This document shows, in pieces, positions 26,811-46,617 of a DNA stretch of 64,000 nt. The position numbers were made by a program, and so were the translations under genes. Source of the stretch: Methanofollis tationis (lineage in GTDB: Archaea; Halobacteriota; Methanomicrobia; Methanomicrobiales; Methanofollaceae). The stretch's first letter is position 1. Every line of letters starts with the position of its first letter. Below the pieces are notes generated by a model. That model did not search any database and had not been told where the DNA came from. It saw nothing but the letters and a program-made list of their open reading frames with translations. The stretch covers positions 693,104 through 757,103 of the forward strand of contig NZ_JABXWR010000001.1 in the NCBI RefSeq assembly GCF_013377755.1, read 5' to 3'.

Positions 26811-29800
26811 GGAGAGAGGAGCAGTCCTTTGTCCGGGTCTCGGGCGGGATTATTACCTCGCATTTTGTTTCGCTGATGGAGGACGAGGATCACGGGTTTG
26901 AGTATGCACGGCCCGAGACCTTTGTGAGTCCCTGGGAGGAGGAGGATGCCGCCCCGCAGGATGAGAAGGAGTTCCTGAGGCGGGTGCGTGAGGTCTGGGA
27001 CGATCTGCGGGGGAGGTTCGATGAGAAGTACCGGGATATCCATGCCGGGAGGGTGAGTGCGGAGGATGCACGCCGTCTCTGGCAGAGACCGGTGCTGAAG
27101 GCGCTGGGGTTTGACCCGGTCTCGACGAACCGGCAGATCGTGATCAGCGACAGGTTGAAGTACCGCTTCTCTCACCGCGGCTGGTTTGCCCGGCAGGGTA
27201 TAGCGAGGCCGCCGGTGATCCATATCCTGCCGCCGGGTGCGGACCCGGATGTCCGCCCGTCGCGGGGTGAGCCGTCGCCGCAGGACGCCCTGCAGGACTG
27301 CCTGAACCGGCATGACGCTACCTGGGCGATGCTGATGAACGAGACGGTGATCCGGATCCTGCGGGATTATCACCACACGACGGTGCCTGGGTATGTGGAG
27401 TTCGATCTCGAAGGGATTTTCCTGAACCGGAGTTTTCCGGAGTTTCTCGCTCTGTACCGGTTCTGCCATGCGAGCAGGTTTGCCCGGAGTCCGGCGAGTG
27501 GGAAGGAGCCGCTGGAGGAGTATTATGAGGTGAGCCGCCAGGCTGGCGAGCGGATCGGGGAAAGCCTCCGGGAGAATGTGGTCCTGGCGATCGAGGAACT
27601 GGGGAACGGGTTCCTGGACGGGGCGCTGATCGAGCGGTTGCGGGGCGACGATGCGGCGTGCCGGGCGTATTACCAGGAGATCCTGGCGGTGGTGTACCGG
27701 ATCATCTTTATGCTCTTTGCTGAGCAGCGCGGGGTGCTCGGCGGCGGGGAGCATGGGAGCCTGTTCCTGGAGGAGTATTCGGTTACGTCCCTGCGGGAGC
27801 GGGTGGATGCGTTTGCAGAGCGGGACGACCGGCACACCGATCTCTGGGAGGGGCTGTGCGTGACCTTCAGGATGATGGAGGAGGGCGTGCCGGCGCTGGG
27901 GGTGAACGCCTTTGACGGGGTGCTGTTCTCGCGGGGGAATGAGCGGTTCCTGAAGGGTGTACGCTGCCGGAATACGGCCCTGATGAATGCGATCAGGGCG
28001 CTGACCTGGACGCAGCCTGAGAACGGGGGGCAGGGGAGGCGTCGGAACGGGGCGTACGGCCGCCAGCGGATCAGTTACGCCGATCTTTCGGTGGAGGAGA
28101 TCGGGGCGATCTACGAGAGTCTGCTCGACTACACGCCGCGGATCACGGCGGGGTTTGAGGAGGTGGAGGGCCGGGAGTATCGGCCGGGCGTGTTTATGCT
28201 GGACCCGCGGGGGTCGGAGCGGAAGACGACGGGGTCGTATTATACGAACCCGGACCTGATCGCGGAGCTGGTGAGGAGCGCGCTGGACCCGGTGATCGCC
28301 GACCGGCTTTCGCGGGCCGGGCCGGAGCCTGCAGCGCGGGAGCGGGCTTTGCTCTCGATCCGGGTCTGTGATCCGGCGTGCGGGAGCGGGGCATTCCTGA
28401 TCGCGGCGGCGAACCGGCTGGGGAGGGAACTGGCAAAGGTGCGGAGCGGGACTGAACTGCCGGCAGCGGCTGAGGTGCATGCGGCCAGGCGGGACGTGCT
28501 CTCGCACTGCATCTATGGCGTGGACTTAAACCCGATGGCGGTGGAGCTGGCGAAGGTCTCGCTCTGGATCAACGCGCTGGTGGCCGACCGGCCGCTCTCG
28601 TTCCTGGACCACCATGTCAGGTGCGGCAATTCGCTCGTCGGGGCGACGCCGGATCTGGTGGCGGACGGTGTGCCGGACGAGGCCTACACGCCGGCGGAGG
28701 GGGAGTCGCGGGATGCCGCAAGAGAGGTGAAGCGGGCGAACAAGGAGCAGCGGACGAACAGGACGTTTGCCGCCTTCTCTGAACCGCCGGGGATCCCTGA
28801 GGCGTGCGTGAGGCAGTTTGCCGCCCTTGCTGAGTCGGCTGAGGACGACCCGGCGGCGGTGGCGAGGAAGCGGGAGGCGTACGAGCGCCTTGTCTGTTCG
28901 GACCGGGTGGCACGCGACCGCCTGGCGGCGGACTGCTGGTGCGCGGCCTTTTTCTGGCCGATGGATGCTGAGCATGCGGGGACGGCGCCGACGACCGAGA
29001 CGGTGCGGATGGCGCTGGCGCACGGGGGGGAGGGGCTCGACCCGGCGACGCGTGCCGGGGTGGAGCGGATCGCCGCCAGGCACCGTTTCTTCCACTGGCA
29101 TATCGCCTTCCCCGAGGTCTTCGCCGACGGGGGGTTCGACTGCGTGCTCGGGAACCCGCCGTGGGAGCGGATCAAGATCCAGGAGAAGGAGTTCTTTGCC
29201 TTCCGCGATCCCGCTGTGGCCGGGGCCAGGAACGCCGCCGAGCGGAACCGGATGATCACGGCGCTGAAGAAGGCGAACCCGGCGCTGCACGCCGAGTTCC
29301 TGGACGCCACGCGTGCGAGCGAGCGCGAGAGCCTGTTCATCCGGACGTCGGGGCGTTTCCCGCTGACCGGGCGGGGGGACATCAACACCTATACGGTCTT
29401 TTCCGAACTCGCCCGCCGGGTGATCGCACCCCGCGGCCGGGCCGGGATCATCGTGCCGACCGGGATCGCCACCGACGCCACGACCGCCCCCTTCTTCGGC
29501 GACCTGGTGGAGTCGGCGTCGCTCGTGAGCCTCTACGACTTCGAGAACCGGCAGAAACTCTTCCCGATCGACAGCAGGATGAAGTTCTGCCTGCTCACGA
29601 TGGCCGGGAGCGAGGCGGGGGCGGGCGCCTTCGACCTCGCCTTCTTCCTCCACCGGATCGAGGACCTCCACGACGACGACCGGCACTTCACCCTCACGCC
29701 CGAGGAGATCGGGCTGATCAACCCGAACACGAAGAACTGCCCGATCTTCAGGTCGAAGCGGGACGCGGAGATCACGAAGGCGGTCTACCGCCGGGTGCCG

Positions 29801-31327
29801 GTGCTCGTGGACGAGGCGAAGGGGGACGCCGGCAACCTATGGGATGTTTCGTTTCAGGCGATGTTCCATATGTCCAACGACTCCCACCTCTTCAGGACGC
29901 GGGAGGAGATGGAGGAGGCGGGGTTCGTGCTTGAGGGGAACCGGTTTGTGAAGGGGGATGAGGTGTGGCTGCCGCTGTATGAGGCGAAGATGTTCCATCA
30001 GTATGATCATCGGTTTGGGACGTTTGAAGGAGTTGATGACCGGGGGAATACGCATATTCCGACGCCTACTACTGAACAACATGCTGATCCGAATTTTATT
30101 GTGATGCCATGGTATTGGGTGAGTGAAATATCAGTTCGAGAAATTAACGAAGATTTCAAGTGGTATATTGGTTTTAGAGATATAACAAACTCAACGAATG
30201 AAAGAACAGGTGTATACTCAATCATTCCCTATTCTGGTGTTGGGAATACATCTCCCCTAATCATCCTATCAAGTATACCCCCAACACTTATTCTATTGAT
30301 AATCTCGAATTTTAATTGCCCATCATATGACTATTGTATAAGATTGAAAATGGGTGGAACACATCTAACCTATTTTATTTTCAAACAACTCCCCGTCCTC
30401 CCCCCCTCCACCTACACACCCGCCCTCACCGACTTCATCGCCCCCCGCGTCGTCGAACTCACCTACACCGCCTGGGACCTCGAAGCCTTCGCCTCCGACG
30501 TCCTCGCCGAGGTCGGCGTAGAGACCTGGAACAGGTGGTTCCCGGCAAACCCGGTCGGGAAGGACGGCAGGCCGACCCCCTTTGTCTGGGACGAGGAGCG
30601 GCGGTTCGACCTGCGGTGCGACCTCGACGCCCTGTACTTCCACCTCTACGGGATCTCGCGGGAGGATGCCGACTACATCATGGAGACCTTCCCGATCGTG
30701 CGGCGCAAGGACGAGGCCGCCTACGGGCGCTACCGCACAAAGGAGGTGATCCTCCAGAAGTACGACGCCCTCGCCGGCGAGTTCGTGCGGGTGTTGCGTG
30801 CCGATCTCCCGGAGAGGGACGGCGCACCCGACTGGGCGGCGCTGATCCGGGGCGGCGAGAACGAGGGGGTCGAGTTCAAGACCTCGATGTCATGGGACGC
30901 GGCCACCGGGCGGCGGAACAAGGCGCTGGAGCACACCATCGCCCGCACCCTCGCCTCCTTCATGAACACCCGCGGCGGCGTGCTCTTCCTCGGCCTCGAC
31001 GACAGCAGCGGGATCGTCGGCCTCGACGGCGACATCTCCCTCTCCAGACGGCAGAACGAGGACGGCCTCCGCCTCCGCTTCGACGACCTGGTCCGGACCT
31101 ACCTCGGCAACGCCCACCTCCCGCAGGTGACCGTCCACCCCCTCGACGGCGACGGGAAGAGGTACTGGGCGGTGGAGGTCAGGCCTGCCGACGACCCCGT
31201 GTACGTGACGAACAACGGCGACGAGGAGTTCTGGGTCCGCGGGACAGCGTCGTCGCGGAAACTCTCGGTGCGCGAGACTGTCGAGTACATCAGGGGCCGG
31301 TTCAGTGCTCCATCGTCAGAGAGGTAA
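26807..31327 (+). CDS. Eco57I-type adenine-specific DNA methylase with C-terminal Schlafen/AlbA_2 domain
   Basis: A 1506-residue protein. The gamma-type N6-adenine methylase core has motif I DPACGSGAFLIAA (about 522) and motif IV NPPW (about 783). A target-recognition region with IGFRDITNSTNERT and GGTHLTYFIFKQLPVLPP (about 1110-1200) follows. The last 150 residues (about 1350-1490) are an AlbA_2 fold: NEGVEFKTSMSWD, ARTLASFMNTRGGVLFLGLDD. Such size and domain order resemble DrmMI/PglX-like enzymes, but a fused Schlafen-type tail is unusual. Bases about 30,010-30,390 are strikingly AT-rich against GC-rich flanks. It overlaps the SNF2 gene and its stop lies 5 nt before the PRTase start. Confidence 0.88.
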   Translation: MRREEQSFVRVSGGIITSHFVSLMEDEDHGFEYARPETFVSPWEEEDAAPQDEKEFLRRVREVWDDLRGRFDEKYRDIHAGRVSAEDARRLWQRPVLKALGFDPVSTNRQIVISDRLKYRFSHRGWFARQGIARPPVIHILPPGADPDVRPSRGEPSPQDALQDCLNRHDATWAMLMNETVIRILRDYHHTTVPGYVEFDLEGIFLNRSFPEFLALYRFCHASRFARSPASGKEPLEEYYEVSRQAGERIGESLRENVVLAIEELGNGFLDGALIERLRGDDAACRAYYQEILAVVYRIIFMLFAEQRGVLGGGEHGSLFLEEYSVTSLRERVDAFAERDDRHTDLWEGLCVTFRMMEEGVPALGVNAFDGVLFSRGNERFLKGVRCRNTALMNAIRALTWTQPENGGQGRRRNGAYGRQRISYADLSVEEIGAIYESLLDYTPRITAGFEEVEGREYRPGVFMLDPRGSERKTTGSYYTNPDLIAELVRSALDPVIADRLSRAGPEPAARERALLSIRVCDPACGSGAFLIAAANRLGRELAKVRSGTELPAAAEVHAARRDVLSHCIYGVDLNPMAVELAKVSLWINALVADRPLSFLDHHVRCGNSLVGATPDLVADGVPDEAYTPAEGESRDAAREVKRANKEQRTNRTFAAFSEPPGIPEACVRQFAALAESAEDDPAAVARKREAYERLVCSDRVARDRLAADCWCAAFFWPMDAEHAGTAPTTETVRMALAHGGEGLDPATRAGVERIAARHRFFHWHIAFPEVFADGGFDCVLGNPPWERIKIQEKEFFAFRDPAVAGARNAAERNRMITALKKANPALHAEFLDATRASERESLFIRTSGRFPLTGRGDINTYTVFSELARRVIAPRGRAGIIVPTGIATDATTAPFFGDLVESASLVSLYDFENRQKLFPIDSRMKFCLLTMAGSEAGAGAFDLAFFLHRIEDLHDDDRHFTLTPEEIGLINPNTKNCPIFRSKRDAEITKAVYRRVPVLVDEAKGDAGNLWDVSFQAMFHMSNDSHLFRTREEMEEAGFVLEGNRFVKGDEVWLPLYEAKMFHQYDHRFGTFEGVDDRGNTHIPTPTTEQHADPNFIVMPWYWVSEISVREINEDFKWYIGFRDITNSTNERTGVYSIIPYSGVGNTSPLIILSSIPPTLILLIISNFNCPSYDYCIRLKMGGTHLTYFIFKQLPVLPPSTYTPALTDFIAPRVVELTYTAWDLEAFASDVLAEVGVETWNRWFPANPVGKDGRPTPFVWDEERRFDLRCDLDALYFHLYGISREDADYIMETFPIVRRKDEAAYGRYRTKEVILQKYDALAGEFVRVLRADLPERDGAPDWAALIRGGENEGVEFKTSMSWDAATGRRNKALEHTIARTLASFMNTRGGVLFLGLDDSSGIVGLDGDISLSRRQNEDGLRLRFDDLVRTYLGNAHLPQVTVHPLDGDGKRYWAVEVRPADDPVYVTNNGDEEFWVRGTASSRKLSVRETVEYIRGRFSAPSSER

Positions 31328-33026: not shown

Positions 33027-36017
33027 CTATTTTTCCCCTGAACCCTGGAGATCCCGAGCGTTCGACAGGATCCCGATCACCTCATTGATCACTCCCACCA
33101 TTTCCCCCCTCTTCTCCATCACCTCGTCCCTGCTATAGAACGAGATATGGGCGGCCCCGTTCCGCTCCAGCGAGAGCGTCCTGCAGAGACCGCCGATCCG
33201 CCCGATCACCCCCTCTGAATATCCCCTCTCCTCCATCAGGTCCCTGAACGCCCGGGTCACCGGGTTGCAATCTGTTTTTTTGATATCAGAGACCAGGTTT
33301 GCCCACTGCCCCAGAGAGAGCGATTTCTCCGCATTTCCGAGCACCGCCTTCAGCGTGAACGGCAGCGGCTGGATCTTCTCCTCCTTCAACCCATTCCAGA
33401 AACGCCCCTCAACCCCTGACCCCGGCGCCGGGCAGAACCGTGCGTCCTGCCGGATCCGCTCCCGCACCGGGTGGAGGACCTCCTCGTACAGCATCTTCTC
33501 CACCCCTTTCCCGTACTGGACCACCACCGGCCCGATATCATAGGACGCCCGTTCAGGCCCGGTAAACACGCTGTACAGCAGCCAGTCGCCGGTCCTGAAG
33601 ACCGACCGCACCTCCTCGGAATTGATCCGCGGCAGGGTGATCACATGGGCGGCGAGTCCGGCGACCTCCTCCTCCATCCTCTGGTAATCTGCGTTTCCGG
33701 GATCGAGTTCAGACGCCCTCTTGAGATCCGCACGCGCCCTTTCGTACTCCATCAGGGCGGCATGACACTGCGCCATCCCTGCATATGCCAGCGCCGACGC
33801 CGGGTCATCCTCCGCCGCGCGGGCATACCACTCGCACGCCTCCCGGGGATCCCCGTCGGCAAGATACGACGCGGCGACCATGGAGGAGACCGCCGCCCGC
33901 TCCGGCCCGGCACCCGCACGCCCGGCGGCCCTCTGGAGCCAGACCCTCGCCTCCTCGCTCAGGCTATTCTGGAGATATGCCTCCCCGATAAACCGGGCCG
34001 GATCTCCCGGCAGGCCCAGAGAGATAAACTCTCCCTCGAATACCTCCCAGAACCGCGCCAGAAGCTCCGGGTCGCCCCATCCCACCGTCTCGTAGATGAT
34101 CGGCTGGATGATGCCGATATAGCCGTTATCGGGCCCGGCCTTATCCTCTGCAGGAGTGGACCTGAGGGCCCGGCGGATCGCCTCCGTAACATCGCCGTCA
34201 ACATCCCCGGACTCCCTGGCCTTCAGCAGGGCAAGGGAGATCCAGGAGAATACCTTTGTATATGAACCCTCACGGGACAACTCCGCAGCCTTCTGCAGGA
34301 GATCGATCGCCTCCGCGCTCCTGTCGAAATGCCTGCAGAGGGTGGACTTCTCCGAGTAGAGGACGGGTATGGGATATATTTCGAGAGTGCGATCGATCCA
34401 GCGGAGTGCATCCGCGTATTGATACGACAGTGCTGCGGTTTTCAGCCTCCGCTTATACTTCTCTTTCCGCTCTTCCAGATCGATCCCGCGGACCGTCCGG
34501 AAGTCCGGTTCATCCATCGTCCGGGTCAGGAGACCAAGCCTCGCAAGGGCGACGGTGAGGTGCGGGTCCTCTGGACTGACCAGTTCGACATACCCGTTCA
34601 GGTGCTCGTATTCGAGGGCATACTCGCCGGTCCGCCGACATGCCTCTGCAAGATTGTACTCGATCGAGCTCCTGAACTCTGCCGGAAAGCGTCCGGCATC
34701 GGCGGCGATCCTGGCAACCTCCCGCCTGAACCAGTCGCTGCCGCTGACATGATGCCGCATCTCCGCGCAGTTCTTCCGCTCGACAAACTCCTTGTGCTGG
34801 CGCATCCCGGGCTCCAGTTTTTTTGTCAGTTTCAGCGCAATCTCGTACCATTTCAGGGCAGAACGGTAGTCCTCGTATTCTCGGTACGCCGTCGCAATGC
34901 CGTCAGCGAGAACATACTTCTCCTCCCCCTTCTTCTCACGCGAGAAGAGATATTCCCCGACCTTTGCCGCGTGCTCGTAGAACCCGGCATAAAACAACTG
35001 GGTCATCTTTAGGTGGTGAAGATGCGCCTCAGGAGAGCATTGCGTAAGGTCAGAGAGGTACTGCTCACCGATAGAAAACGGGTAATTGCCGTTGAGAACC
35101 CTGACCTTCTCATCGCGTGACAGGGACAGAAACCATTCATATGCCGCGATCGTGGCGCTGTCCGCCTCAAACTTCCAGAGTTCGCGGGCCGCTTCAATGT
35201 CCGGATGAGGATCAACGACGCTCCTCCCGAACAGCGCTCTCTCAAGGGTAGCCTGGAACGGCAGGTTCAGACCGACACACTCCATCAGGGACATATCAGG
35301 CAACTGCGGGTCCCCGGATGCAGAAAATCTCCCCTTGAACCTGAGGTTCTGCACCACGAACCTGTGTGCTGCATAGAAAATGTCGGCCGTAAATCCCGCC
35401 GCCGGAAAGAGCGTATCGTCCACACCCATACCTGGACCGTAGTAAAGTCCGCTCCCCTGATCACTCATCTGTCTGCGGATTGCAAGGATCTCAAGATCGT
35501 TCTCGATCTTCCCCTCCGCCACTTCAAGCCATGCCTGCAGGTATCTGAGCTTGCTTTCCCTCTCCCGCCTGATACGGTCACTGGTATAACTGGAGACCGT
35601 GGAAGGATCCTGAGAAAACTGCATGACCTCTTCAAGGGGATTTCCCCCGTTTTCAACGGCCCTCTCCATCACCTCAACCAGACCCTTTGGTCCGGGCAAA
35701 TCCGGATCAGAATACGCGATTTCTGCCGTCTCACCAAAGATCAGGAGAATCGTCTGCCTGACACGCTCCAGGACAGCAGGACTCTCCTGCACTCTCTCGA
35801 GCACGTACTGCGCGAACCCTGGATCGCGCTTCAGTCTCACCAGCATCAGGTTATCCAGGGCATGATCGATGAACCGGTCGCGCTTCTCCTCATGCGAGAG
35901 ATCCTGCACCGAACAGAGAAACTCCCTGTCCGCCCGGACAGCATACGACTCCCAGAGAAAATCACGGACCGGAGATATATTGATCGTCATATCTTCATCA
36001 ACAACGTCTGTTCTCAT
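33027..36017 (-). CDS. TPR-repeat protein with HEPN-like C-terminal domain
   Basis: A 996-residue protein with helical repeats: DGIATAYREYEDYRSALKWYE (split motif), WISLALLKA, and canonical TPRs near 700-790 (AYAGMAQCHAALMEYERA, then ELDPGNADYQRM). The C-terminal approximately 180 residues are a separate helical domain containing EKMLYEEVLHPVRERI and, close to the end, SLERNGAAHISFYSRD. R952-x4-H957 fits the R-x4-6-H motif of HEPN ribonucleases and toxins. It lies 80 nt downstream of viperin on the same strand, so the two are probably co-transcribed. A TPR sensor plus RNase effector is a common abortive-infection plan. I know no described homologue, and catalysis is inferred from one motif. 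Confidence 0.65.
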   Translation of the reverse strand: MRTDVVDEDMTINISPVRDFLWESYAVRADREFLCSVQDLSHEEKRDRFIDHALDNLMLVRLKRDPGFAQYVLERVQESPAVLERVRQTILLIFGETAEIAYSDPDLPGPKGLVEVMERAVENGGNPLEEVMQFSQDPSTVSSYTSDRIRRERESKLRYLQAWLEVAEGKIENDLEILAIRRQMSDQGSGLYYGPGMGVDDTLFPAAGFTADIFYAAHRFVVQNLRFKGRFSASGDPQLPDMSLMECVGLNLPFQATLERALFGRSVVDPHPDIEAARELWKFEADSATIAAYEWFLSLSRDEKVRVLNGNYPFSIGEQYLSDLTQCSPEAHLHHLKMTQLFYAGFYEHAAKVGEYLFSREKKGEEKYVLADGIATAYREYEDYRSALKWYEIALKLTKKLEPGMRQHKEFVERKNCAEMRHHVSGSDWFRREVARIAADAGRFPAEFRSSIEYNLAEACRRTGEYALEYEHLNGYVELVSPEDPHLTVALARLGLLTRTMDEPDFRTVRGIDLEERKEKYKRRLKTAALSYQYADALRWIDRTLEIYPIPVLYSEKSTLCRHFDRSAEAIDLLQKAAELSREGSYTKVFSWISLALLKARESGDVDGDVTEAIRRALRSTPAEDKAGPDNGYIGIIQPIIYETVGWGDPELLARFWEVFEGEFISLGLPGDPARFIGEAYLQNSLSEEARVWLQRAAGRAGAGPERAAVSSMVAASYLADGDPREACEWYARAAEDDPASALAYAGMAQCHAALMEYERARADLKRASELDPGNADYQRMEEEVAGLAAHVITLPRINSEEVRSVFRTGDWLLYSVFTGPERASYDIGPVVVQYGKGVEKMLYEEVLHPVRERIRQDARFCPAPGSGVEGRFWNGLKEEKIQPLPFTLKAVLGNAEKSLSLGQWANLVSDIKKTDCNPVTRAFRDLMEERGYSEGVIGRIGGLCRTLSLERNGAAHISFYSRDEVMEKRGEMVGVINEVIGILSNARDLQGSGEK

Positions 36018-36096: not shown

Positions 36097-36957
36097 TCAC
36101 CACGCATACACCCCTCCCCTCCCGAGGTACTGCCCCTCGTCAACATATGCCGAAACCCCGGACTCAAGCACCTCATCCAGGGAATATTTCCTGATCACCC
36201 GCCCGGTATCGGTCTTCACGCGGCCACCCGGTGTGACCATGAAATACGACCCCTCGATCATCGCCGAGGACTCAAACACCGGCAGGACACCGCCGCGCAG
36301 GACGACACCAGTATGACGGTCGGCAAAAGCCCTGAACTCCGCGTCGGTCACCGAGAGATCGGCCACCGCCCCGTCGTTCTCCCCCCTGATATGGAGCATC
36401 TGCAACACCTTCCAGCGGTCGGGATCGGTCCTCCTGATGAACCCGGTCATATCTTCCTCCCGGGAGAGGGCGGTGACCGTCGTATTGATCTTCAGCCTGA
36501 TCCCGGCCTCCCTGATCGCATCCGAGAGACGAATGCAGTGACCGACGTGCCGACCGTCTCCGCGGCCCAGGCGCACCTCGGTCTCCTCAGAGGCCGAATC
36601 CACCGAGAGGGCGATCCAGTCGATATACCCCCTCTCCATCCTGACCTGTTCCGGTGTCAGCCGCGACCCGTTCGTCGTGATCGAGACGGTCATCCCCAGG
36701 TCATGGGCGGCGCGGCAGTAATCAAAGAGCCGCGGATGGAGAAGCGGTTCCCCCCCGGCAAAATTGATCTTCTCCATCCCTGCATCGGCAAGACGGGTGA
36801 GGATCCTCTCTCCTTCAGAGAAAGAGACCGGTGTTTCCCCCAGGTTCCGCGCAAAACAGAACCTGCACGAATAGTTGCAGGCAGAGATCAGATGCCAGTT
36901 CACAGACCGGATCGTAGACGGCGCGAGCATATACTGTGGTTCTATCAGGAAAACCAT
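36097..36957 (-). CDS. Prokaryotic viperin (radical SAM, ddh-nucleotide synthase family)
   Basis: About 286 residues from ATG 36,957; ATG 36,930 is also possible. The upstream start at 37,032 would run through a palindromic regulatory site and is rejected. It has the radical-SAM motif CNYSCRFC (CX3CX2C). Viperin-specific blocks align with the animal protein: SVNWHLISACNYSC, GMEKINFAGGEPLLHP, ALSVDSASEETEVRLGRG, KINTTVTALSREEDM, DRWKVLQMLHIRGEN and the C-terminal LGRGGVYAW. Viperins convert CTP (in some prokaryotes GTP or UTP) to 3'-deoxy-3',4'-didehydro chain terminators that stop viral RNA polymerases. The conserved C-terminal motif separates it from QueE and other small radical-SAM enzymes. 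It is divergent from a CARF-HTH gene. Confidence 0.88.
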   Translation of the reverse strand: MVFLIEPQYMLAPSTIRSVNWHLISACNYSCRFCFARNLGETPVSFSEGERILTRLADAGMEKINFAGGEPLLHPRLFDYCRAAHDLGMTVSITTNGSRLTPEQVRMERGYIDWIALSVDSASEETEVRLGRGDGRHVGHCIRLSDAIREAGIRLKINTTVTALSREEDMTGFIRRTDPDRWKVLQMLHIRGENDGAVADLSVTDAEFRAFADRHTGVVLRGGVLPVFESSAMIEGSYFMVTPGGRVKTDTGRVIRKYSLDEVLESGVSAYVDEGQYLGRGGVYAW

Positions 36958-36970
36958 CAGGGTAATCCGA

Positions 36971-36996
36971 AATTGTTTCAAAAATCGGAAACAATT
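36971..36996. promoter_or_regulatory. Perfect palindrome between viperin and the CARF-HTH gene (putative operator)
   Basis: AATTGTTTC (36,971-36,979) and GAAACAATT (36,988-36,996) form a 9+9 perfect inverted repeat with an 8-nt spacer. It starts 14 nt upstream of the viperin ATG and ends 26 nt before the CARF ATG. AT-rich TATA-like sequences overlap its edge in both directions (AATTTATC rightward, GATAAATT leftward). A dimeric winged-helix regulator bound here would control both genes. Its size and symmetry suit the neighbouring HTH protein. Confidence 0.65.
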
Positions 36997-37022
36997 TATC
37001 TCCGCCTGTGCATTTTCTGGAT

Positions 37023-38000
37023 ATGCCCGCACCGCACCTCCTCTTCATCAGCGCAGGGGAGCACATCCACGAAACATTTCCAGCCTGCATCAAAAACCTG
37101 AAAGAGATCACCCACGCCGTCGTCGTTGTGGAGGAGAGCGTCTATCACGACCTCCAGGGAGACCAGGTGCATATGAAGACGGTAAAGCCCCAGATCAGGG
37201 AGGCGATCCAGGGAGTACAGGCGATCTGCGACTCGATGAACATCGCCTTCAGCGAGATCAGGACAGAAGACACCCGGATCAACGCGATCCGTGACGCCGT
37301 CCTCACCGTCACCCGCCAATACCCGGCGGCGCGCATCTCCTTCAACCTGAGCGGCGGGACAAAGATGCTCTCCCTCTCCCTCTTCATCATGGCGCTCTGG
37401 CTCGACGCGCAGGTCTACCTGACGCCGAGAAACGACCAGATCGAGCAGATCCTCATCCCACAGATGCATCTCGACGAGATCAGGAGGAACCCCAACTACC
37501 CTGAAGCCCTCCAAACACTCTCCGTCGCCCCGGGCGAATGGATGACCCGCCAGAATTTTGCCAGGGCATTTAAATACAAACCCTCCCGTCTCCCTGGCGA
37601 CGAAAAGACGAAACGGACCCCGAACCGCGGGACCATCACCAGGATCCTCCAGCAACTCATCGACTGGGGGCTTATCGAAGAGTCGTTCTGCGATAAGAGC
37701 AAAAAGGCAAAACAGTACCGCCTGACACCCCACGGCGAATTTGCGCAGAAGATGCTCAGGGCCGAAGGCGGAAATGGTACCCCGGAACAGATATATTTGC
37801 AACTTTTTGAAACTATTTCAGGGTACCATTACCGGCACCTCCCCCCAACCCTCAATAAAGGAGGTGAACAGATGGGAAAGAAAGGCTCCATGACCCCCGG
37901 TGCGGCAAGCCGGATCCAGTCCTCGGCCGACCGGAGCGGCACCAACCAGGGCTTCAAGTCCAGGGCGATGTCCTCGGCTGCAAAGAGCAGCAAAAAATAA
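37023..38000 (+). CDS. CARF-domain transcriptional regulator with C-terminal winged helix
   Basis: About 325 residues from ATG 37,023; GTG 37,008 is an alternative. The N-terminal half is a CARF-type Rossmann domain: HLLFISAGEHIHETFPACI, a VVVVEESV strand and the ligand-site motif FNLSGGTKMLSLSLFIMA (about residue 111). About residues 165-265 are a winged helix (MTRQNFARAFKYK, TITRILQQLIDWGLIEE, KAKQYRLTPHGEF). This is the plan of Csa3/DUF6293-type regulators that bind cyclic oligonucleotides or related ligands. There is no stop before 38,000, so the frame also runs through a small SMP-like protein that has its own ribosome-binding site. It could be a natural fusion or an in-frame overlap. 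Confidence 0.8.
   Translation: MPAPHLLFISAGEHIHETFPACIKNLKEITHAVVVVEESVYHDLQGDQVHMKTVKPQIREAIQGVQAICDSMNIAFSEIRTEDTRINAIRDAVLTVTRQYPAARISFNLSGGTKMLSLSLFIMALWLDAQVYLTPRNDQIEQILIPQMHLDEIRRNPNYPEALQTLSVAPGEWMTRQNFARAFKYKPSRLPGDEKTKRTPNRGTITRILQQLIDWGLIEESFCDKSKKAKQYRLTPHGEFAQKMLRAEGGNGTPEQIYLQLFETISGYHYRHLPPTLNKGGEQMGKKGSMTPGAASRIQSSADRSGTNQGFKSRAMSSAAKSSKK
37773..37830. repeat. 10-nt perfect inverted repeat near the end of the CARF gene
   Basis: AATGGTACCC (37,773-37,782) and GGGTACCATT (37,821-37,830) flank a 38-nt AT-rich loop that also holds GAAACTATTTC, similar to one half of the upstream operator. It lies just 5' of the SMP-like gene's ribosome-binding site. It could be a second regulatory site or the scar of a small insertion. 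Confidence 0.45.
37872..38000 (+). CDS. Small SMP-like basic protein nested in frame at the 3' end of the CARF gene
   Basis: 42 residues, opening MGKKGSMTPGAASRIQSS and continuing with DRSGTNQGF and SRAMSSAA. This matches the widespread small stress-associated seed-maturation-protein-like family found alone in bacteria and methanogens (family recalled from pattern). GGAGGTGA lies 5 nt upstream of ATG 37,872, the strongest ribosome-binding site in the neighbourhood, so independent translation is likely. It is in the same frame as the CARF ORF with no stop between. Confidence 0.65.
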   Translation: MGKKGSMTPGAASRIQSSADRSGTNQGFKSRAMSSAAKSSKK

Positions 38001-38094: not shown

Positions 38095-41000
38095 ATGACC
38101 CCTTCCAGATTCGACCCGATGCAGGCCCTGGATACCATCTCCTGGGCATACCGCACATTTGTCAGTTCATTCCAGAAATTCAAAAATCCCGTCATCAAAG
38201 ACTGGATCGACGAACGGATCACAGAAGGCTCCCTCCTCTATAAAGGTCCATACATCGAACTGGCCCGCAGGTACGCCCCCGGCGACACCTTCGAGACCCT
38301 CGTCAGGGAAGAGATCATCCACCCCGCCACCCCGCGCTGCTTCTCCAGAGACCCCGAAGACCCTGACGCCCCTCCCGTCCACCTCTACCGCCACCAGAGC
38401 GATGCCATCCGCTCGATCATCAAAGGGCAGAACACCGTCATCACCTCGGGCACCGGATCTGGCAAATCCTTCTGCTTCTCCATCCCCGTCGTCTCCACCG
38501 CCCTTACGATGCAGGACCAGGGCCTCACCGGCATAAAAGCGATCTTCGTCTACCCGATGAACGCCCTCGCCAACTCCCAGTACGACGACCTCGCCCTCAG
38601 ACTCAGGGGCTCTGGCCTGAAGATCGCCATATACACCGGCGACACCCCGCACACCCGCGACGAAGCCCTCATCTCCTACCGTGAACGCACCGGCAGGACA
38701 GCCCCCTACGACAGCGAACTCATCTCCCGCGAAGAGATCAAACGCTCCCCGCCAGACATCCTGATCACCAACTACGTGATGCTCGAGTACATTCTCACCC
38801 GGTTCGAGGACAAAATCCTCTTCCCCGAAGAGAACCTCGGCATCCTCAAATACCTCGTCCTCGACGAGATCCACACCTACACCGGCAAAAAAGGCGCCGA
38901 CACCGCATACCTGATCAGGCGTCTCAAAGAGCACACAGGCACCGCCGGCACCCTCAGGTGCATCGGCACCAGTGCAACCGTACGCGAAGGCGAAGGCGAA
39001 AAATCAGGCGAAGCCATCGCCCTCTTCGCCGCAAAACTCTTCGGCGAACCCTTCGACCGCACCGCCGTCATCGCCGAGACCTTTCTCCGCCCCCCCCGCG
39101 GCACCGGCAGCAAACTCCCTGACCGCGTCCTGGTCCCCGAAACCTTCGACCGGGTACACGACCTGAACCCCGCGTACCTCAAAGACCTCGCTGAAGACCT
39201 CACCGGCGAACCCCTCGGGATCGGCAACCCATCCCCCGCATACCTCGGTGAAACCCTCGGCTCCCAGCGGACCATCCAGTTCATCGAAGACCAGCTCGCC
39301 GAAGAACCCAGGAGCATCCCCGACCTGATCCGCACCTACCGCGCCGAGGTCCGGCAGAACGCCACCTACGAAGAGGCAGCGCGTGAGATCATGGCCGCCT
39401 TCATCATGGGCATGTACGGTGAGATCCCCGTCGGCAACACCCTCCAGAAACGCTTCATCCCGAAGGTCCACATGTACTTCTCCCAGGGCAGAGAGATCAA
39501 GACCTGCCTCTCCCGCGACGGCCCGCACCTCCACGACGCCGGCGAAGTCACCTGCCCGCGGTGTGCAGAGAGAGACAGAACCCGTATCACCTTTCCCATG
39601 GTATTCTGCCGGGCATGCGGCCAGGAATACTACTCGGTCGAACTCCTCCCCGACAACACGCTCAGACCGCGCGACCTCGACACCCCTGCAAGCGAAGGTG
39701 AAGCCCTCTACCTCTACAAAGGGGAGTTCGGGGAAGACAGAGCAGCCCCGCCTGAATGGTGGTGTGACAAATCCGGTGAGGTAAAGGAGAGATACCGCAC
39801 CTTCGTCACCCCCAGAACCGGCACCTACTGCCCTGACTGCAACACCCTCTATATCGACGGGGAAAAGAACGACCCCTGCCTCTGCGCCGAGAAGATCCGC
39901 GTCACCCTCATCCCCATGCCCTTCCGCTTCTGTCCAGGCGAAGGCTGCGGTGTCTCCTATGACCTGAGAACGCGGCGAGAGTTCAACAAACTCTTCTCCT
40001 TCGGCACCGTCGGGCGATCGACCGCCACCGACATCCTCGTCTCAAACATGCTCACAACCCTCCCTGAATCCGAGCAGAAAGTCATCGCCTTCTCAGACAA
40101 CCGGCAGGACACCGCCCTCCAGGCCGCCCACATGAACAACATCCAGAAGCGGATCCACTTCAGAAGAGGTCTCTACCACACCCTCAAAGAGACCGGCGGT
40201 CCCCTCCCCCTCCTCGAAGCAGGGGACGAGATCTTCAACACCCTCTCCAGACACCATTCAGACGGAGCGCTGCCTGCCTTTGAGAACGATCCCGGTTCGG
40301 GCAGGATGCGGAGAAACTCCCGGGCCGAACCCATATACCGGAAATACCTCCTGATGAACACCCTCCTCGAGATGGGCTCAACCCGGCAGAAAAACCAGCC
40401 GAACCTCGAGGACGTCGGGCTCCTCAAGGTAACCTACGCCGGTCTGAACGAGATCGCCGCCGACACCTCCCTCTGGGAGACGAACCCCGCCCTCTCCTCG
40501 ATCCTCGCAGAACAGCGGGAAGACTACCTCAGGGGCTTCCTGGACATCATGCGCCACAATCTTGCGATCTCATCCGATTTCTTCACACGTCCCTACGAAT
40601 TCGCCGAGAGCATAGAACGTTTCCTCAACCCGGACATCCTCTTCCACAACGAACTCCTCTCGACGCGCCCGACCGGTTACAGCGACGACGCCAGCAGAAA
40701 CACACCCTACGCCACCGTCTACCGCCTCAGTCACCCCGGCGGCTCACTGGTCAAATGGACAAAAAAAGCGCTGAAAATCGACAACACCGAAGAGGCGCAG
40801 CAGATCATCTCGCTCGTTGAAGAAACACTCTGCAACGAAAAAGGGTTGAAAAAAGAGAAAATCCACTGGACCGGCACAATAACCATGATCAACCCGGAGA
40901 TCATCGACCTCAACCTTGCAGACCCTCAACAGGCAAACGTCTGCCGGAAATGCGGTCAGGTACACCACTTCAACGAACTCAACCTCTGCATAAACCCCAA

Positions 41001-43461
41001 CTGCACCGACCTCATCACCCGCGACCTCTCTGAAAACTACTTCGGGATCGAATACACACGGCCATTCCGCGAGGCGGTCCCGCTCCACGCCGAGGAGCAC
41101 AGTGGCCAGATCGACGGGGAAACCCGGAAAAAACTGGAGACACGCTTCAGGGATCAGAACAACAACCTCAACGTGATCGTATGCACCCCCACAATGGAAC
41201 TCGGGATCGACATCGGCACCCTCTCAGCGGTCTACCTGAGAAACGTCCCGCCCTCTCCCTCCAACTATGCGCAACGCGCCGGGCGTGCCGGCCGAAAATC
41301 ACAGGCATCCATGATCCTCACCTTCTGTGGCGTTGGATCCCACCGCGGCCCGCACGACCAGTACTTCTACCGCTACCCGGCCAAGATGATCTCGGGAAAA
41401 ATATCTCCACCTCGTTTCCTGATGGACAACCGGATGCTGATCCAGGCCCATATCCACGCCCTCATCCTTGAGATCATCACCCTCAAAATCCCGCAGAAGA
41501 TCGATGGCATCCTCGATTTCGAGAAAGAAAACCTCCCGATGTTCCAGGACGCCGACACCCCCGCCGACACCGAAAACCTCAGCAAGACCCGTCTGTCTGA
41601 GATGGTCGAAACACACAGAGACCGCATCCTCACCGCCGTGGAAAACGTCCTGGCAGAAGAGATGCAGTCCCTCGAATGGCTCGACACCCCGTTCATCACA
41701 CGGACCGTCGATTCGTTCATCATCTCATTCGATGGCGCATTCAATCTCTTCAGGAGCGAATATTCGGCGCTGCTCCGCGAACATGAAGAGATCAACATGT
41801 TCATGCAGAGAGGGCGGATCACCGACAGGCAGCGGGGGGCGTACCAACGGAGACGGGCCTCCATCGAGAGAAAACTCGATAACATGAGAAACGGTGGCGG
41901 AGACTTCACAACCTACCGCTACCTCGCCTCACAGGGTTTCCTTCCAAACTATGGCTTCCCCACCCAGGTCACATCTCTCGCTATCAACTATAAGGGTATA
42001 TTCGGAGCAGAAGAAGCAGAACTGAAGAGAGACCGGAACATCGCCCTGGTTGAATACGCCCCTGGAAACAGTGTATACTTCAGCGGGAACCGGTACTCCA
42101 TCAGAACCCCGCGGCTGAGAACCGAGAACAACCAGCCCGCGATGAGTTCGATCCTCATCTGTCCGTCCTGCTCAGCGGTCTACCTCGATGAGCGCGAGAT
42201 CGCCATGACCGGGGGCGCCTGCAGAAGTTGCGGCTCCTCGCTCGAGCACGTGGACCCCAACCACGCCGCCATCGAGATGCCCGACCAGCTTGCAGAGTCG
42301 CGCTCGATGATCACCAGCGACGAGGAGGAGCGCCAGCGCCTCGGCTATCAGGTCACCCGCCACTACACGCCCTCAACAACCCGCCAGTTCTTCGCGGCCG
42401 GGGATCTCGAAGCCCCCCTGATCTGCATCTCCTATGACCATGCAGGCAAGATCATCAGCGTCAACCATGGCCCCATACCCTCAGACAGGGACGAGCCTGT
42501 ATCTGGATTTACACTCTGCACTGCCTGCAACCGCTGGATTTTCGGGAAAAACGGCGTGCAAGAACACCTGGACTCAACGAACGAGACGAAGCGGTGCTGG
42601 AGACGCGGCACAGAGGAGAACATCATCAGAAACATCGTTCTCTACACCGACACCCGGCATGACGTGATCAAAATCGATGTGCCGGTCCCTCCTGACAGCG
42701 AGGGCAACCCTCTTGATAAAGAGTTGTACACCTCCTTCTTTGCCACACTCGCGCAGGCGATCATCGAAGGCGTCCAGATCAGCATGAATGTCGATATGGA
42801 CGAGGTGCGCTACTTCCTGATGCCCGATCCCGGGGACAGAACAAAGTCCAGCATCATCATTTATGAGACCTCAGAAGGCGGGGCAGGGATTCTCGAATCG
42901 ATCTTCAACCGCTCCGCCTTCCACGAGGTAATCAGGCAGGCGCTGACCATCCTCCATGAATACGACGAGAAAAAATGCGATCGGGCATGCTATGAATGCC
43001 TGTGCAACTACTACAACCAGTACGACCATGACAAGTTCGACAGAAAACTTGTGCTCCCCCTCCTCCGCAGGATCTTGACCGCAGATGTCCGCCGTGTCGC
43101 CGACTCCTCCCCTTCGACGAAGGCCGCGCTTGAGAAACTCCTTGCTACCTGTGAATCCTCCTTTGAGAGAGAGATTCTGGAGAAGATATACGAGGCAGGC
43201 CTTCCCCTTCCTGATGGCGGGCAGGAGCCCATCGCAGAAGGCGATGAGATCGTCGCCCGCCCAGATTTTATCTACAGAAGCAGCGGGCACACCATCGCGA
43301 TCTTTGTCGACGGCCCTGACCATGACACAGACGCTCAGAGACGCGACGATGAGAAAAAGAGGGACCGACTGGACCTGATGGGCTACACGGTCTTTGCCAT
43401 ATCATACCGGGATGAAGAGGACAGATGGATCAACGCCCTCTCTGAACTGCTGTATCAGTGA
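38095..43461 (+). CDS. MrfA/DrmA-B-like DEAD/DEAH helicase (DUF1998) fused to a Vsr/DUF559-like nuclease
   Basis: A 1788-residue protein. Lobe 1 has HRHQSDAIRSI, Walker A TSGTGSGKS (about 117-125) and DEIH (about 257). Cysteine pairs at about 485-510 (CPRCAE, CRACG) and 578-600 (CPDC, CLC) suggest zinc ribbons. Lobe 2 at about 1027-1075 has CTPTMELGIDIG and NYAQRAGRAGR. The DUF1998 part (about 1568-1660) ends in the metal-site motif CDRACYECLCNYYNQ. The final 110 residues (ARPDFIYRSSG, IFVDGPDHD, KRDRLDLMGYTVFAI) look like a Vsr/DUF559 PD-(D/E)XK-type nuclease. MrfA-type helicases act in repair and in DISARM and related defence; a single-chain nuclease fusion would unwind and cut. Confidence 0.85.
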   Translation: MTPSRFDPMQALDTISWAYRTFVSSFQKFKNPVIKDWIDERITEGSLLYKGPYIELARRYAPGDTFETLVREEIIHPATPRCFSRDPEDPDAPPVHLYRHQSDAIRSIIKGQNTVITSGTGSGKSFCFSIPVVSTALTMQDQGLTGIKAIFVYPMNALANSQYDDLALRLRGSGLKIAIYTGDTPHTRDEALISYRERTGRTAPYDSELISREEIKRSPPDILITNYVMLEYILTRFEDKILFPEENLGILKYLVLDEIHTYTGKKGADTAYLIRRLKEHTGTAGTLRCIGTSATVREGEGEKSGEAIALFAAKLFGEPFDRTAVIAETFLRPPRGTGSKLPDRVLVPETFDRVHDLNPAYLKDLAEDLTGEPLGIGNPSPAYLGETLGSQRTIQFIEDQLAEEPRSIPDLIRTYRAEVRQNATYEEAAREIMAAFIMGMYGEIPVGNTLQKRFIPKVHMYFSQGREIKTCLSRDGPHLHDAGEVTCPRCAERDRTRITFPMVFCRACGQEYYSVELLPDNTLRPRDLDTPASEGEALYLYKGEFGEDRAAPPEWWCDKSGEVKERYRTFVTPRTGTYCPDCNTLYIDGEKNDPCLCAEKIRVTLIPMPFRFCPGEGCGVSYDLRTRREFNKLFSFGTVGRSTATDILVSNMLTTLPESEQKVIAFSDNRQDTALQAAHMNNIQKRIHFRRGLYHTLKETGGPLPLLEAGDEIFNTLSRHHSDGALPAFENDPGSGRMRRNSRAEPIYRKYLLMNTLLEMGSTRQKNQPNLEDVGLLKVTYAGLNEIAADTSLWETNPALSSILAEQREDYLRGFLDIMRHNLAISSDFFTRPYEFAESIERFLNPDILFHNELLSTRPTGYSDDASRNTPYATVYRLSHPGGSLVKWTKKALKIDNTEEAQQIISLVEETLCNEKGLKKEKIHWTGTITMINPEIIDLNLADPQQANVCRKCGQVHHFNELNLCINPNCTDLITRDLSENYFGIEYTRPFREAVPLHAEEHSGQIDGETRKKLETRFRDQNNNLNVIVCTPTMELGIDIGTLSAVYLRNVPPSPSNYAQRAGRAGRKSQASMILTFCGVGSHRGPHDQYFYRYPAKMISGKISPPRFLMDNRMLIQAHIHALILEIITLKIPQKIDGILDFEKENLPMFQDADTPADTENLSKTRLSEMVETHRDRILTAVENVLAEEMQSLEWLDTPFITRTVDSFIISFDGAFNLFRSEYSALLREHEEINMFMQRGRITDRQRGAYQRRRASIERKLDNMRNGGGDFTTYRYLASQGFLPNYGFPTQVTSLAINYKGIFGAEEAELKRDRNIALVEYAPGNSVYFSGNRYSIRTPRLRTENNQPAMSSILICPSCSAVYLDEREIAMTGGACRSCGSSLEHVDPNHAAIEMPDQLAESRSMITSDEEERQRLGYQVTRHYTPSTTRQFFAAGDLEAPLICISYDHAGKIISVNHGPIPSDRDEPVSGFTLCTACNRWIFGKNGVQEHLDSTNETKRCWRRGTEENIIRNIVLYTDTRHDVIKIDVPVPPDSEGNPLDKELYTSFFATLAQAIIEGVQISMNVDMDEVRYFLMPDPGDRTKSSIIIYETSEGGAGILESIFNRSAFHEVIRQALTILHEYDEKKCDRACYECLCNYYNQYDHDKFDRKLVLPLLRRILTADVRRVADSSPSTKAALEKLLATCESSFEREILEKIYEAGLPLPDGGQEPIAEGDEIVARPDFIYRSSGHTIAIFVDGPDHDTDAQRRDDEKKRDRLDLMGYTVFAISYRDEEDRWINALSELLYQ

Positions 43462-43602: not shown

Positions 43603-46600
43603 TCACCGACCCCGGAAAGCAGAGTAAGGGCTTTGCAACCTCCCCAGCGCCCGATCCATCTCCTTCTTCACTTCAGGATCGGGTTCACGCCGCCTCAGTT
43701 TCATCAGATCGCTCCGGGCATGTGTGTCCCTGAGGAGACCCAGGGCCCATGCCGCCTTTTTCCGAACCCCTGCCGCCGGGTCTTTGAGACAGGGAAGCAG
43801 CACCTCTGTCACCCGTCGATACCGGATCAGACCAAGCGCCTCGATCGCCCGCTCACGGACCCCCGGGTCTTTATTTTTTAACAGGGCGATCAGGGGATCG
43901 ATTGCCTCGGGTCCTTCCTTGACAAGGAGCTGGACGATCCTGCCCCGATCCTTCGGAGATGTGTTTTCTTTCAGTAATACGATCAACTGCTCAACTCTGC
44001 TCTGACCCATCGACTCCGGCATCTCATCTGGATCGCCACCTGCACCGGGCCGGGGTCTTCCACTCACTTCTCTCTCCCCGGCACTATCCCCCCCACACCG
44101 CAGGATCAACCCCCTGATCACCGCCGGCTCCCTCCCACCGATGGCCAGCAGCCAGCGCTGGCTCGGCACCTCCATCATCTGCTCATTCCCGTACGCCGAC
44201 CTCAGCACTCTCGCCCACCCCTCATCGGTGAGCGGTGGTCTCATCCCCTCCAGGAAACTGAGCAGCCGCGCCCGCACCTCAGGCAGGATCGATTCGACGA
44301 TATTCCTGACCTTGATCTCGCCGAAGTCCTCGGTCGCCAGGCCCGGCATCTCATCTGGATCGTCACCTGCACCGGGCCGGGAACTTCTCCTCACTTCTCC
44401 CTCCCTGGCACTATCCCCCCCATACCGCAGGATCAACTCCCTGATCGCCGCCGGTTCCCTCCCGGCGATGACCAGCAGCCAGCGCTGGCTCGGCACCTCC
44501 ACCATCTGCTCATCCCTGTACGCCGACCTCAGCACCCGCGCCCACCCCTCATCGGTCAGGGGGCCGGTCATCCCCTCCAGCAGGCCGACCAGCCGCGCCC
44601 GCGCCTCGGGCAGGATCGATTCGACGATATTCCTCACCTTGATCACGCCGAAGTCATCGGTCGCCATGCCCTCATGGCCGGCATAATATGTCCGGACCGC
44701 CTCCTCGGACGCCTGTTCAAAGGCAGAGAAGACCTCGGGCTCATCGGCCGCCTCTTCGGTGATCGGGATCCCCATCTTCAGGGCCACATCGGTGATCCAT
44801 GCGAGATCGTTCTGGTAGGTAAACGAGTCCTCCGAGACAATATAATTGCGGGGAACGGCCACGAAGTGGTGGAAGACCGGCTTTTTCCCCGGCCGGTTCC
44901 GCAGGATCCTGCCCAGGCGCTGGATCAGCTGGAGTTTCGTCTTCGACGAAGCCACGTTGATCCCGACCTCCGCGTCCGGAATATCGATACCCTCGTCGAG
45001 CATCCGCGGGGCGATCAGCACGCCGGTCCTCGCCGCCCTGAAGGCCTGGAGGGCGTGCTTCGCCTCCCCGTCCTTCAATTTCGAATGGACGATGAAGGCC
45101 GGCACCGTCCCGGAGAGACGCTCATAGACCCGCTCGCAGGTCGCAATATCCATCGCAAAGAGCACGCACTTCTTCGCCCCGCCCAGGTTCCGCGCCAGCC
45201 TGATCGCCTCCTCGAGTTTCGGCGACGACCGGTGGATCACCCACCGGCGTTTGTTGATCAGGCCGATCATCTGGAGCCACTCGTCCGGGATCTCCACGCT
45301 GCGGTACCGGAGATCGGTCATCAGGCGGACAAAGTCAGAGAGGCTCTCAAACCGCTCAAACCGGTTCCTCGACAATACCCTGATCTGTTCTTTCTGGGTG
45401 GCGTTGATGTAGTTCAGGAGTTTCCTGATGCTCTCGGTGATCGAGGCGAACTCCTCCTCCTCCATGATATCCAAGAACGTCTTGTGGACCACAAGGTTGA
45501 ACTCCGGGATGATCCCGTCCCGCCGTGCATCGGCCAGCGTATAGGTATAGACCGTCCTCCCGAGGCACCCGTCCAGGACATCGGTCCGCCCGCGCCCCTC
45601 CACCGTCGCCGAGAGTCCCATCTTCCATTTGCAGGGAACGGTCAGCGCATTCCGAAACTGCGGCCCGGCCCCGTGGTGGACCTCGTCGACGATGAGGAGG
45701 TCGGTGCTGTACTGTCCCGGATCCCTCATCACCATCTGGAAGGTGTTGAACGAGATCTCAAACTTCCCCTTATACGAGACCGGCACCGTATACTCCTCGT
45801 CCGGGTCTCCCAGAAACCCCAGTTTCTCGATCGCCTCCCGCCGCCACTGGTTCAGGATCGCCCGCGAATGGCAGAGCACCAGCACCCGCAGGGCGCGGTG
45901 GACTCTGAAGAGATGATAAGCCGTGGCAAGACCGACCAGGGTCTTACCGGTCGCCGTTGCCATCTCCAGCACCCCTTTCCCCCCGGCACCGAGCCAGCGG
46001 TCGCGGGCCTGGACCTGGTGCTTCCAGAGTGAGAGCAGGACCTCGGGCGTCCCGGCGATCTCGCGGAGGCCCTCGTCGGATGGGGGCCAGGCGCCGAGGT
46101 AATCGCCCCACTTTTTTGCGTTCTTCAGGCCGAGGTAGAACTCCATCGCAAAGAGCGAACTCCCCACCGAGAAGAGCCGGGCGCTCTCGTCGATCGGTGA
46201 GGGCGGCAACGCGATCTTCACGGCGATCTTCTTGAGGATCTGGACCTTCTGGATCTCGGGGTAGGTGTGGAGGGCGGTGACCAGGTGTTTTCTGAACCCG
46301 GAGAATTCTCCCCAGGCGTAGTCTGCGTCAGATCCCTCGATGACCCGCTCTGAGAGCACGGCAGCAGCAGTCTCTGCGACATAATCCTCCAGGAGCTGGT
46401 AGTCGGGCCCGGCGGTGTCGAGCCTGGGAAAGAAGAGGGTGCGATGAAAATTGCGGTGGTGGTATTCGTTATCGTAATGGTTGAGGAGCTCCTCATCGGC
46501 CAGACTGAGGGCGACCGGGAGGGGATGGGGGTCGAGCGTCTGCTCCCTGAAATGGTCATAGGTGAAACGCTCCGGGTGTTCGAGATATTCCAGTTCATAT

Positions 46601-46617
46601 GCCGAGAGGTGTTTCAT
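43603..46617 (-). CDS. Superfamily 2 helicase with duplicated 109-aa module and C-terminal HEAT repeats
   Basis: A 1004-residue protein. An N-terminal domain of about 180 residues has no strong signature. The helicase core follows: LWKHQVQARDRWL, Walker A MATATGKTLVG (about 221), DEVHHG (about 309), LSATVEG, and motif VI LIQRLGRILRNRPGKK (about 570). Residues about 648-866 are two tandem copies of a 109-residue helical module (IKVRNIVESILPE, DEGWARVLRSAY, EVPSQRWLL). About 870-995 are HEAT/PBS-type repeats (DPGVRERAIEALGLIR, DPAAGVRKKAAWALGLLRD). It converges with the MrfA-like gene, 142 nt apart. The HEAT tail suggests a protein- or DNA-binding scaffold; function is inferred to be defence by location. 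Confidence 0.82.
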   Translation of the reverse strand: MKHLSAYELEYLEHPERFTYDHFREQTLDPHPLPVALSLADEELLNHYDNEYHHRNFHRTLFFPRLDTAGPDYQLLEDYVAETAAAVLSERVIEGSDADYAWGEFSGFRKHLVTALHTYPEIQKVQILKKIAVKIALPPSPIDESARLFSVGSSLFAMEFYLGLKNAKKWGDYLGAWPPSDEGLREIAGTPEVLLSLWKHQVQARDRWLGAGGKGVLEMATATGKTLVGLATAYHLFRVHRALRVLVLCHSRAILNQWRREAIEKLGFLGDPDEEYTVPVSYKGKFEISFNTFQMVMRDPGQYSTDLLIVDEVHHGAGPQFRNALTVPCKWKMGLSATVEGRGRTDVLDGCLGRTVYTYTLADARRDGIIPEFNLVVHKTFLDIMEEEEFASITESIRKLLNYINATQKEQIRVLSRNRFERFESLSDFVRLMTDLRYRSVEIPDEWLQMIGLINKRRWVIHRSSPKLEEAIRLARNLGGAKKCVLFAMDIATCERVYERLSGTVPAFIVHSKLKDGEAKHALQAFRAARTGVLIAPRMLDEGIDIPDAEVGINVASSKTKLQLIQRLGRILRNRPGKKPVFHHFVAVPRNYIVSEDSFTYQNDLAWITDVALKMGIPITEEAADEPEVFSAFEQASEEAVRTYYAGHEGMATDDFGVIKVRNIVESILPEARARLVGLLEGMTGPLTDEGWARVLRSAYRDEQMVEVPSQRWLLVIAGREPAAIRELILRYGGDSAREGEVRRSSRPGAGDDPDEMPGLATEDFGEIKVRNIVESILPEVRARLLSFLEGMRPPLTDEGWARVLRSAYGNEQMMEVPSQRWLLAIGGREPAVIRGLILRCGGDSAGEREVSGRPRPGAGGDPDEMPESMGQSRVEQLIVLLKENTSPKDRGRIVQLLVKEGPEAIDPLIALLKNKDPGVRERAIEALGLIRYRRVTEVLLPCLKDPAAGVRKKAAWALGLLRDTHARSDLMKLRRREPDPEVKKEMDRALGRLQSPYSAFRGR
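44020..44673 (-). repeat. Tandem duplication of 327 bp inside the helicase gene
   Basis: Two head-to-tail 327-bp units (44,347-44,673 and 44,020-44,346) encode 109-residue copies that are largely identical, for example GLATEDFGEIKVRNIVE against GMATDDFGVIKVRNIVE. The frame is kept. High identity implies recent duplication or gene conversion. Confidence 0.85.

Follow-up and report, generated by a model that had tools for sequence, protein, structure and literature searches.

BrxR and CapW, two WYL-domain proteins, are local ligand-sensing repressors that act on an inverted repeat adjoining a defence operon. The Csa3 proteins of Sulfolobales are CARF-domain regulators, of which Csa3a activates and Csa3b represses. 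Csa3a binds cA4, but its DNA binding in vitro is unchanged by cA4 (PMC8699464, PMC8844856). In the methanogen Methanosarcina mazei, another CARF-wHTH protein, MM_0565, binds the promoter of its own gene and has effects on genes beyond CRISPR interference (PMC7465815). On the viperin side, the combination of viperin with a TPR protein is listed as an archaea-only type in a 2026 survey, which cites Bernheim 2021 (PMC12988326). In PADLOC-DB 2.0.0 (2023), the model numbers run from pVip (02903-02905) through NERD (02906), TPR (02907), Ankyrin (02908) and Csa3 (02909) to VakA (02911), and from the adjacent numbers it appears that the curators treat Csa3 and TPR as viperin-associated. As far as could be found, the induction of prokaryotic viperins is largely unstudied, and CARF domains have been read almost entirely via type III CRISPR. 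The locus described here, in which a viperin gene and a CARF-wHTH gene diverge from a palindrome, lies in a stretch of 64,000 nucleotides from the methanogen Methanofollis tationis (hereafter the window).

Gene content of the locus

The viperin gene (36097..36930, minus strand) encodes a protein of 277 aa that is confirmed, as far as profile scores and motifs can tell, as a true viperin and is predicted to be a radical SAM ddh-nucleotide synthase. Its score is 256.2 bits for NF038283, where the equivalog cut-off is 180 bits, and 248 bits for PADLOC pVip. The radical SAM cysteines C18-x3-C22-x2-C25 (CxxxCxxC) are intact, the C-terminus reads GGVYAW, and both the cysteine motif and the viperin C-terminus are invariant positions in a comparison across 21 relatives. 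The listed open reading frame is longer (36097-37032, minus strand) and begins with a GTG at 37032, but this start overlaps the CARF gene and would place the palindrome within the reading frame, so it needs correcting. An ATG at 36930 is kept in relatives, with which the resulting 277 aa align end to end; the GTG is probably wrong and the ATG the true start.

The open reading frame of the divergent regulator spans 37008-38000 (plus strand, 330 aa), with translation more likely starting at the ATG at 37023. The frame is open to 38000 and runs through a small gene without a stop codon. The 330-aa product was set aside as a single protein because its end contains this separate gene; the CARF-wHTH gene was accordingly delimited as 37023..37871 (plus strand), and the protein's own C-terminus is uncertain. 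The PADLOC Csa3 model (PDLC02909) matches it over its full length (E=1.5e-95, 318 bits, model positions 1-236 of 237), and its TIGR01884 cas_HTH score is 20.7 bits, under the cut-off of 60.2. The protein would work like Csa3, yet by TIGR01884 it is outside the classical Csa3 class. An AlphaFold2 model was built from the window sequence and relatives (pLDDT 87), and its best PDB match is Csa3 2wte (Z 15.5, 203 residues, rmsd 3.9). Sulfolobus Csa3 structures, with and without cA4, were the top solved matches over both the CARF and wHTH domains (Z 15.5, 14.8 and 14.0). Both ligand-loop motifs of the CARF domain are conserved: SAG follows strand 1 and NxSGGTK follows strand 4. In one CARF clade, GTAL replaces GTK in the second motif, and a single common ligand is therefore not assured.

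The predicted palindromic operator, AAATTGTTTC-aaaaatcg-GAAACAATTT (36970..36997), is located between the viperin and CARF start codons. Its core, AATTGTTTC-N8-GAAACAATT, is exact at 36971-36996, and the arms grow by one base each to an exact palindrome of 10+8+10 bp; read from 36969, the site is GAAATTGTTTC-N8-GAAACAATTT. At up to 3 mismatches, 0.01 matches to the core would be expected by chance in the window, and in the 2.25-Mb genome no second site comes within 2 mismatches of it. When the intergenic region was shuffled 200 times with its dinucleotides kept, two of the shuffles scored as high as the palindrome with 10-bp arms. The end of the palindrome is 25 bp from the CARF ATG and 39 bp from the viperin ATG, so that with the corrected start codons it is wholly between the two genes, and from this position it would overlap both promoters at about the places of the archaeal BRE and TATA elements. 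A first-pass annotation of the same DNA had recognized a viperin, a CARF domain of the GGTK type with a winged helix, and a perfect palindrome between them, and all three identifications hold.

Downstream of viperin by 79 bp and on the same strand is the gene for a large TPR protein (33027..36017, minus strand, 996 aa), which matches PADLOC TPR (PDLC02907) over its full length (E=5.8e-217, 721 bits). Near its C-terminus it carries the sequence R952-N-G-A-A-H957 (33147..33164, minus strand), a candidate HEPN ribonuclease motif of the form R-x4-6-H with a polar residue after R. R-N-x3-H is found in the C-terminal domain of all 16 TPR relatives compared, down to about 20-25% identity. The model of this domain is helical (pLDDT 86), and RnlA (Z 7.0) and Csm6 (Z 5.6) appear among unrelated helical bundles in the structural comparison. 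Foldseek gave no significant match for the domain, and VIA-align gave only matches with Z <8, to helical bundles. Pfam recognized no HEPN family in eight TPR C-terminal domains, and no relevant entry emerged from a profile search of the PDB; in one TPR relative there was a Pfam hint of HEPN_Apea (E=0.027). As there is no decisive fold match, the reading of the TPR protein as a candidate HEPN RNase rests on the motif.

The small gene at the end of the CARF frame (37872..38000, plus strand) has its own RBS, aaaggaggtgaacag, is in frame with the CARF reading frame and encodes a 42-aa protein, MGKKGSMTPGAASRIQSS...KSSKK. Among 199 genomes of the order, 20 encode proteins of about 42 aa with the pattern MTPxAAxRIQSxADRSGTNQGFKSRAMSxAAK, often at viperin loci; these proteins have no Pfam family. 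The gene recurs at CARF-viperin loci, and where it is displaced (G218 C1:397012-397125; G390 C1:225653-225769) it has its own copy of the operator.

The window also holds a wider defence island. The CARF gene is followed, here (38095-43461, plus strand) and in one other genome, by a gene for a DEAD helicase that is DruE-like and has an MrfA zinc-binding domain. The product of 26807-31327 (plus strand) is a methyltransferase, type IIG-like or DrmMI-like, that carries a Schlafen AlbA_2 domain, and that of 43603-46617 (minus strand) is a PbeA-like helicase with HEAT repeats.

Conservation of the viperin-CARF pair

The locus was compared across 393 genomes of the phylum, with tandem viperins counted once. 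Matches to the CARF model were found in 37 genomes, to viperin in 26 and to the TPR model in 15. A CARF-wHTH gene is the immediate neighbour (within about 200 bp) at 22 of the 29 viperin loci; 20 of these pairs are divergent, and the remaining two (G096 and G218b) are co-directional tandems. When only CARF matches above 200 bits are taken, 19 of 20 adjoin viperin; in G116, another viperin is adjoined by a CARF protein of 221 aa from a different subfamily. An independent scan of GTDB contigs with the CARF alignment gave 12 loci, all with a divergent viperin, and named records of Methanosarcina, Methanolobus, Methanocorpusculum and Methanoculleus are among them; two of the 12 are labelled as bacterial MAGs and are probably mis-binned. 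The distances among viperins and among CARF proteins correlate (Mantel r 0.78, reached in 0 of 5000 permutations), a value that is inflated by shared species ancestry. Large TPR relatives adjoin viperin at most pair loci, some of them too diverged for a simple search. Judged by predicted products and gene order, viperin, the Csa3-fold CARF-wHTH protein, the TPR protein and the ~42-aa protein constitute a conserved gene group in methanogenic archaea.

Several variations on this arrangement were observed. The viperin and TPR genes of Methanosarcinaceae are separated by a gene whose product resembles nucleotide kinases (AAA_17 in Pfam, VakA in PADLOC). At three loci of one genus, an MkoA-like SF1 helicase and a DrmC-like protein replace the TPR protein beside the viperin-CARF pair. 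Viperins at four loci have no CARF neighbour and are adjoined instead by a conserved protein of ~555 aa, which had no PADLOC match in the two members scanned and no Pfam match in the one scanned; its identification in four genomes as PADLOC NERD was tested and not supported. CARF relatives that are not accompanied by viperin occur at eight loci, often several per genome in family f3, and adjoin unidentified genes. No relatives of the CARF protein were found in viral contigs.

Conservation of the predicted operator and its putative regulon

The dyad GAAANNNTTTC-N8/9-GAAACNATT recurs at -76 to -88 of the CARF match in about ten genera. At this position, 12-16 of the 16 consensus bases are present in most Methanomicrobiales and at two loci of the Methanosarcina group, compared with 8-12 of 16 at CARF relatives without viperin, close to the shuffle means of 9.0-11.0. 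The left half of the operator is itself a dyad with co-varying inner bases (GAAATTGTTTC, GAAACAGTTTC, GAAATAATTTC and GTAACCGTTAC). In the Methanolobus group, a different dyad, TTATTTAATAAA-TAGA-TTTATTAAATAA, is found at the same position, and the operator is weak or absent in six carriers of the pair. Self-complementarity in a single genome was rejected as proof, because in several relatives it was often equalled by shuffles; the argument therefore rests on position and on consensus across genomes. Conservation of both the pair and the palindrome, which the first-pass annotation had named as a check on its reading, was thus found.

A genome-wide pattern search of 19 genomes returned 14 rows, corresponding to 13 distinct sites, versus one for the reversed control. 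Nine of the 13 sites are located between viperin and the CARF gene. Two others are 62 and 71 bp upstream of the displaced small gene of the module (G218b, G390), one is 64 bp upstream of another small gene (G096), and one has no recognised link to the module (G086). The site in G096 (C1:2308816-2308843) is distant from the viperin locus, and the small protein whose gene it precedes (MGRSANDDRSDSMNPNNDAYHAAMDNHA) is a different one, which suggests a second member of the regulon. The strongest evidence for the site being the target of the regulator is that copies of the operator travel together with partner genes. From position, consensus and these displaced copies, we infer with good support that the CARF protein controls viperin through the predicted palindromic site.

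Mode of regulation and nature of the signal

The reading that we favour, with a probability of roughly 0.6, is that of a self-contained CARF-regulated viperin module, in which the CARF-wHTH protein would repress itself, viperin and the partner genes until a nucleotide ligand releases the operator. In an uninfected cell, a CARF-wHTH dimer would sit on the dyad across both core promoters and keep all of these genes repressed. Upon infection, a nucleotide-type ligand would enter the CARF pocket and release the dimer, after which both viperin and the TPR protein would be made; viperin would then supply chain-terminating ddh-nucleotides, and the TPR protein would perhaps cut RNA as a HEPN enzyme. 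The preference for repression over activation is drawn from the position of the operator. The protein might instead be a ligand-dependent activator that, once ligand-bound, recruits TBP/TFB at the dyad and turns viperin on, as Csa3a is reported to activate adaptation genes in Sulfolobus from a proposed site, TCCC-N8-GGGA, that has the same 8-bp spacer and is located 12 bp upstream of BRE/TATA (PMC8699464). However, the window dyad, 25 and 39 bp from the starts, covers the expected BRE/TATA of both genes, which suits occlusion better than recruitment, and we regard activation as unlikely. It is far less probable still that the CARF protein regulates only itself and that its divergence from viperin reflects gene order within mobile defence islands. 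Many defence genes do cluster, and CARF relatives without viperin occur in the same order, but many genera retain the pairing, which occurs in both divergent and tandem order, and the operator copies move with the partner genes.

As to the signal, the first-pass annotation had tied the CARF domain to type III CRISPR signalling, and for most carriers this tie fails. If the module were one of the output arms of a type III CRISPR system, the CARF domain would sense cyclic oligoadenylate made by Cas10, and viperin would be induced; Csa3-type CARF domains do bind cA4 (PDB 6w11, 6wxq), and Cas10 is present in three of the 20 pair genomes (G248, G116 and G359). However, Cas10 (PF22335) was not found in the other 17, among them the genome of the window itself, which is 99.3% complete, and there are no cas genes among the annotated window neighbours, so that we give this origin of the signal very little credence. 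Cas10 was the only nucleotide cyclase surveyed, and with this one domain model; a Cas1-like gene is present in all pair genomes. As most carriers of the pair have no Cas10 by this search, the general signal is not type III cyclic oligoadenylate, and the CARF ligand is probably something else. Candidates are other oligonucleotides, cyclic or linear, and a nucleotide that arises during infection or from the module itself. One variant of the last case, in which the CARF domain senses a module-made nucleotide (a ddh-nucleotide, or RNA ends left by the TPR-HEPN protein) and viperin immunity, at first held off, is locked on through feedback without a CRISPR cyclase, is speculative and we consider it improbable. 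The binding of cA4 by Csa3a without altered DNA binding is a caution against a simple ligand-release model. The CARF protein is most likely an autorepressor that acts locally and that some other nucleotide ligand releases.

A viperin switch that is conserved, has a predicted operator and occurs mostly in hosts without Cas10 points to another nucleotide signal, and for finding it the module offers a short DNA target and an assay with purified protein. Should the TPR partner prove to be an RNase, viperin defence in archaea would be a two-effector system, to which the bacterial viperin loci with HicA or RelE can be likened (PMC10865869).

Comparison with known systems

The first-pass annotation knew of no described CARF-viperin circuit. 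As regards the genes, the association had already been catalogued: the PADLOC viperin-associated models (pVip, TPR PDLC02907, Csa3 PDLC02909 and VakA PDLC02911) cover the same neighbouring gene families, and the paper on the archaeal viperin+TPR type names viperin with the TPR protein only (PMC12988326). As regards the circuit, the statement stands, as no description of a CARF-viperin circuit, its operator, its regulon or the HEPN motif was found in the literature searched, outside which lay Bernheim 2021 and the CARF classification paper. The gene association is thus known, and the operator with its regulon and the candidate RNase motif are new. To the PADLOC models and the viperin+TPR type, the present analysis adds the operator, the regulon, the small protein, the R-N-x3-H motif and the absence of Cas10.

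The window CARF protein resembles Csa3a and Csa3b of Sulfolobales (2wte, 6w11, 6wxq) in its CARF and wHTH architecture and in fold, and its dyad shares the 8-bp spacer of their proposed palindromic target. It differs from them in sequence (13-14% identity, and a score under the TIGR01884 cut-off), in its hosts, which mostly lack Cas10, and in its inferred target, which would be viperin rather than CRISPR adaptation. For MM_0565, the other CARF-wHTH protein from a methanogen, neither a viperin link nor a defined binding motif is reported (PMC7465815). In its proposed way of working, the module is like BrxR and CapW, but these are bacterial, sense their ligands through a WYL rather than a CARF domain and control other effectors.
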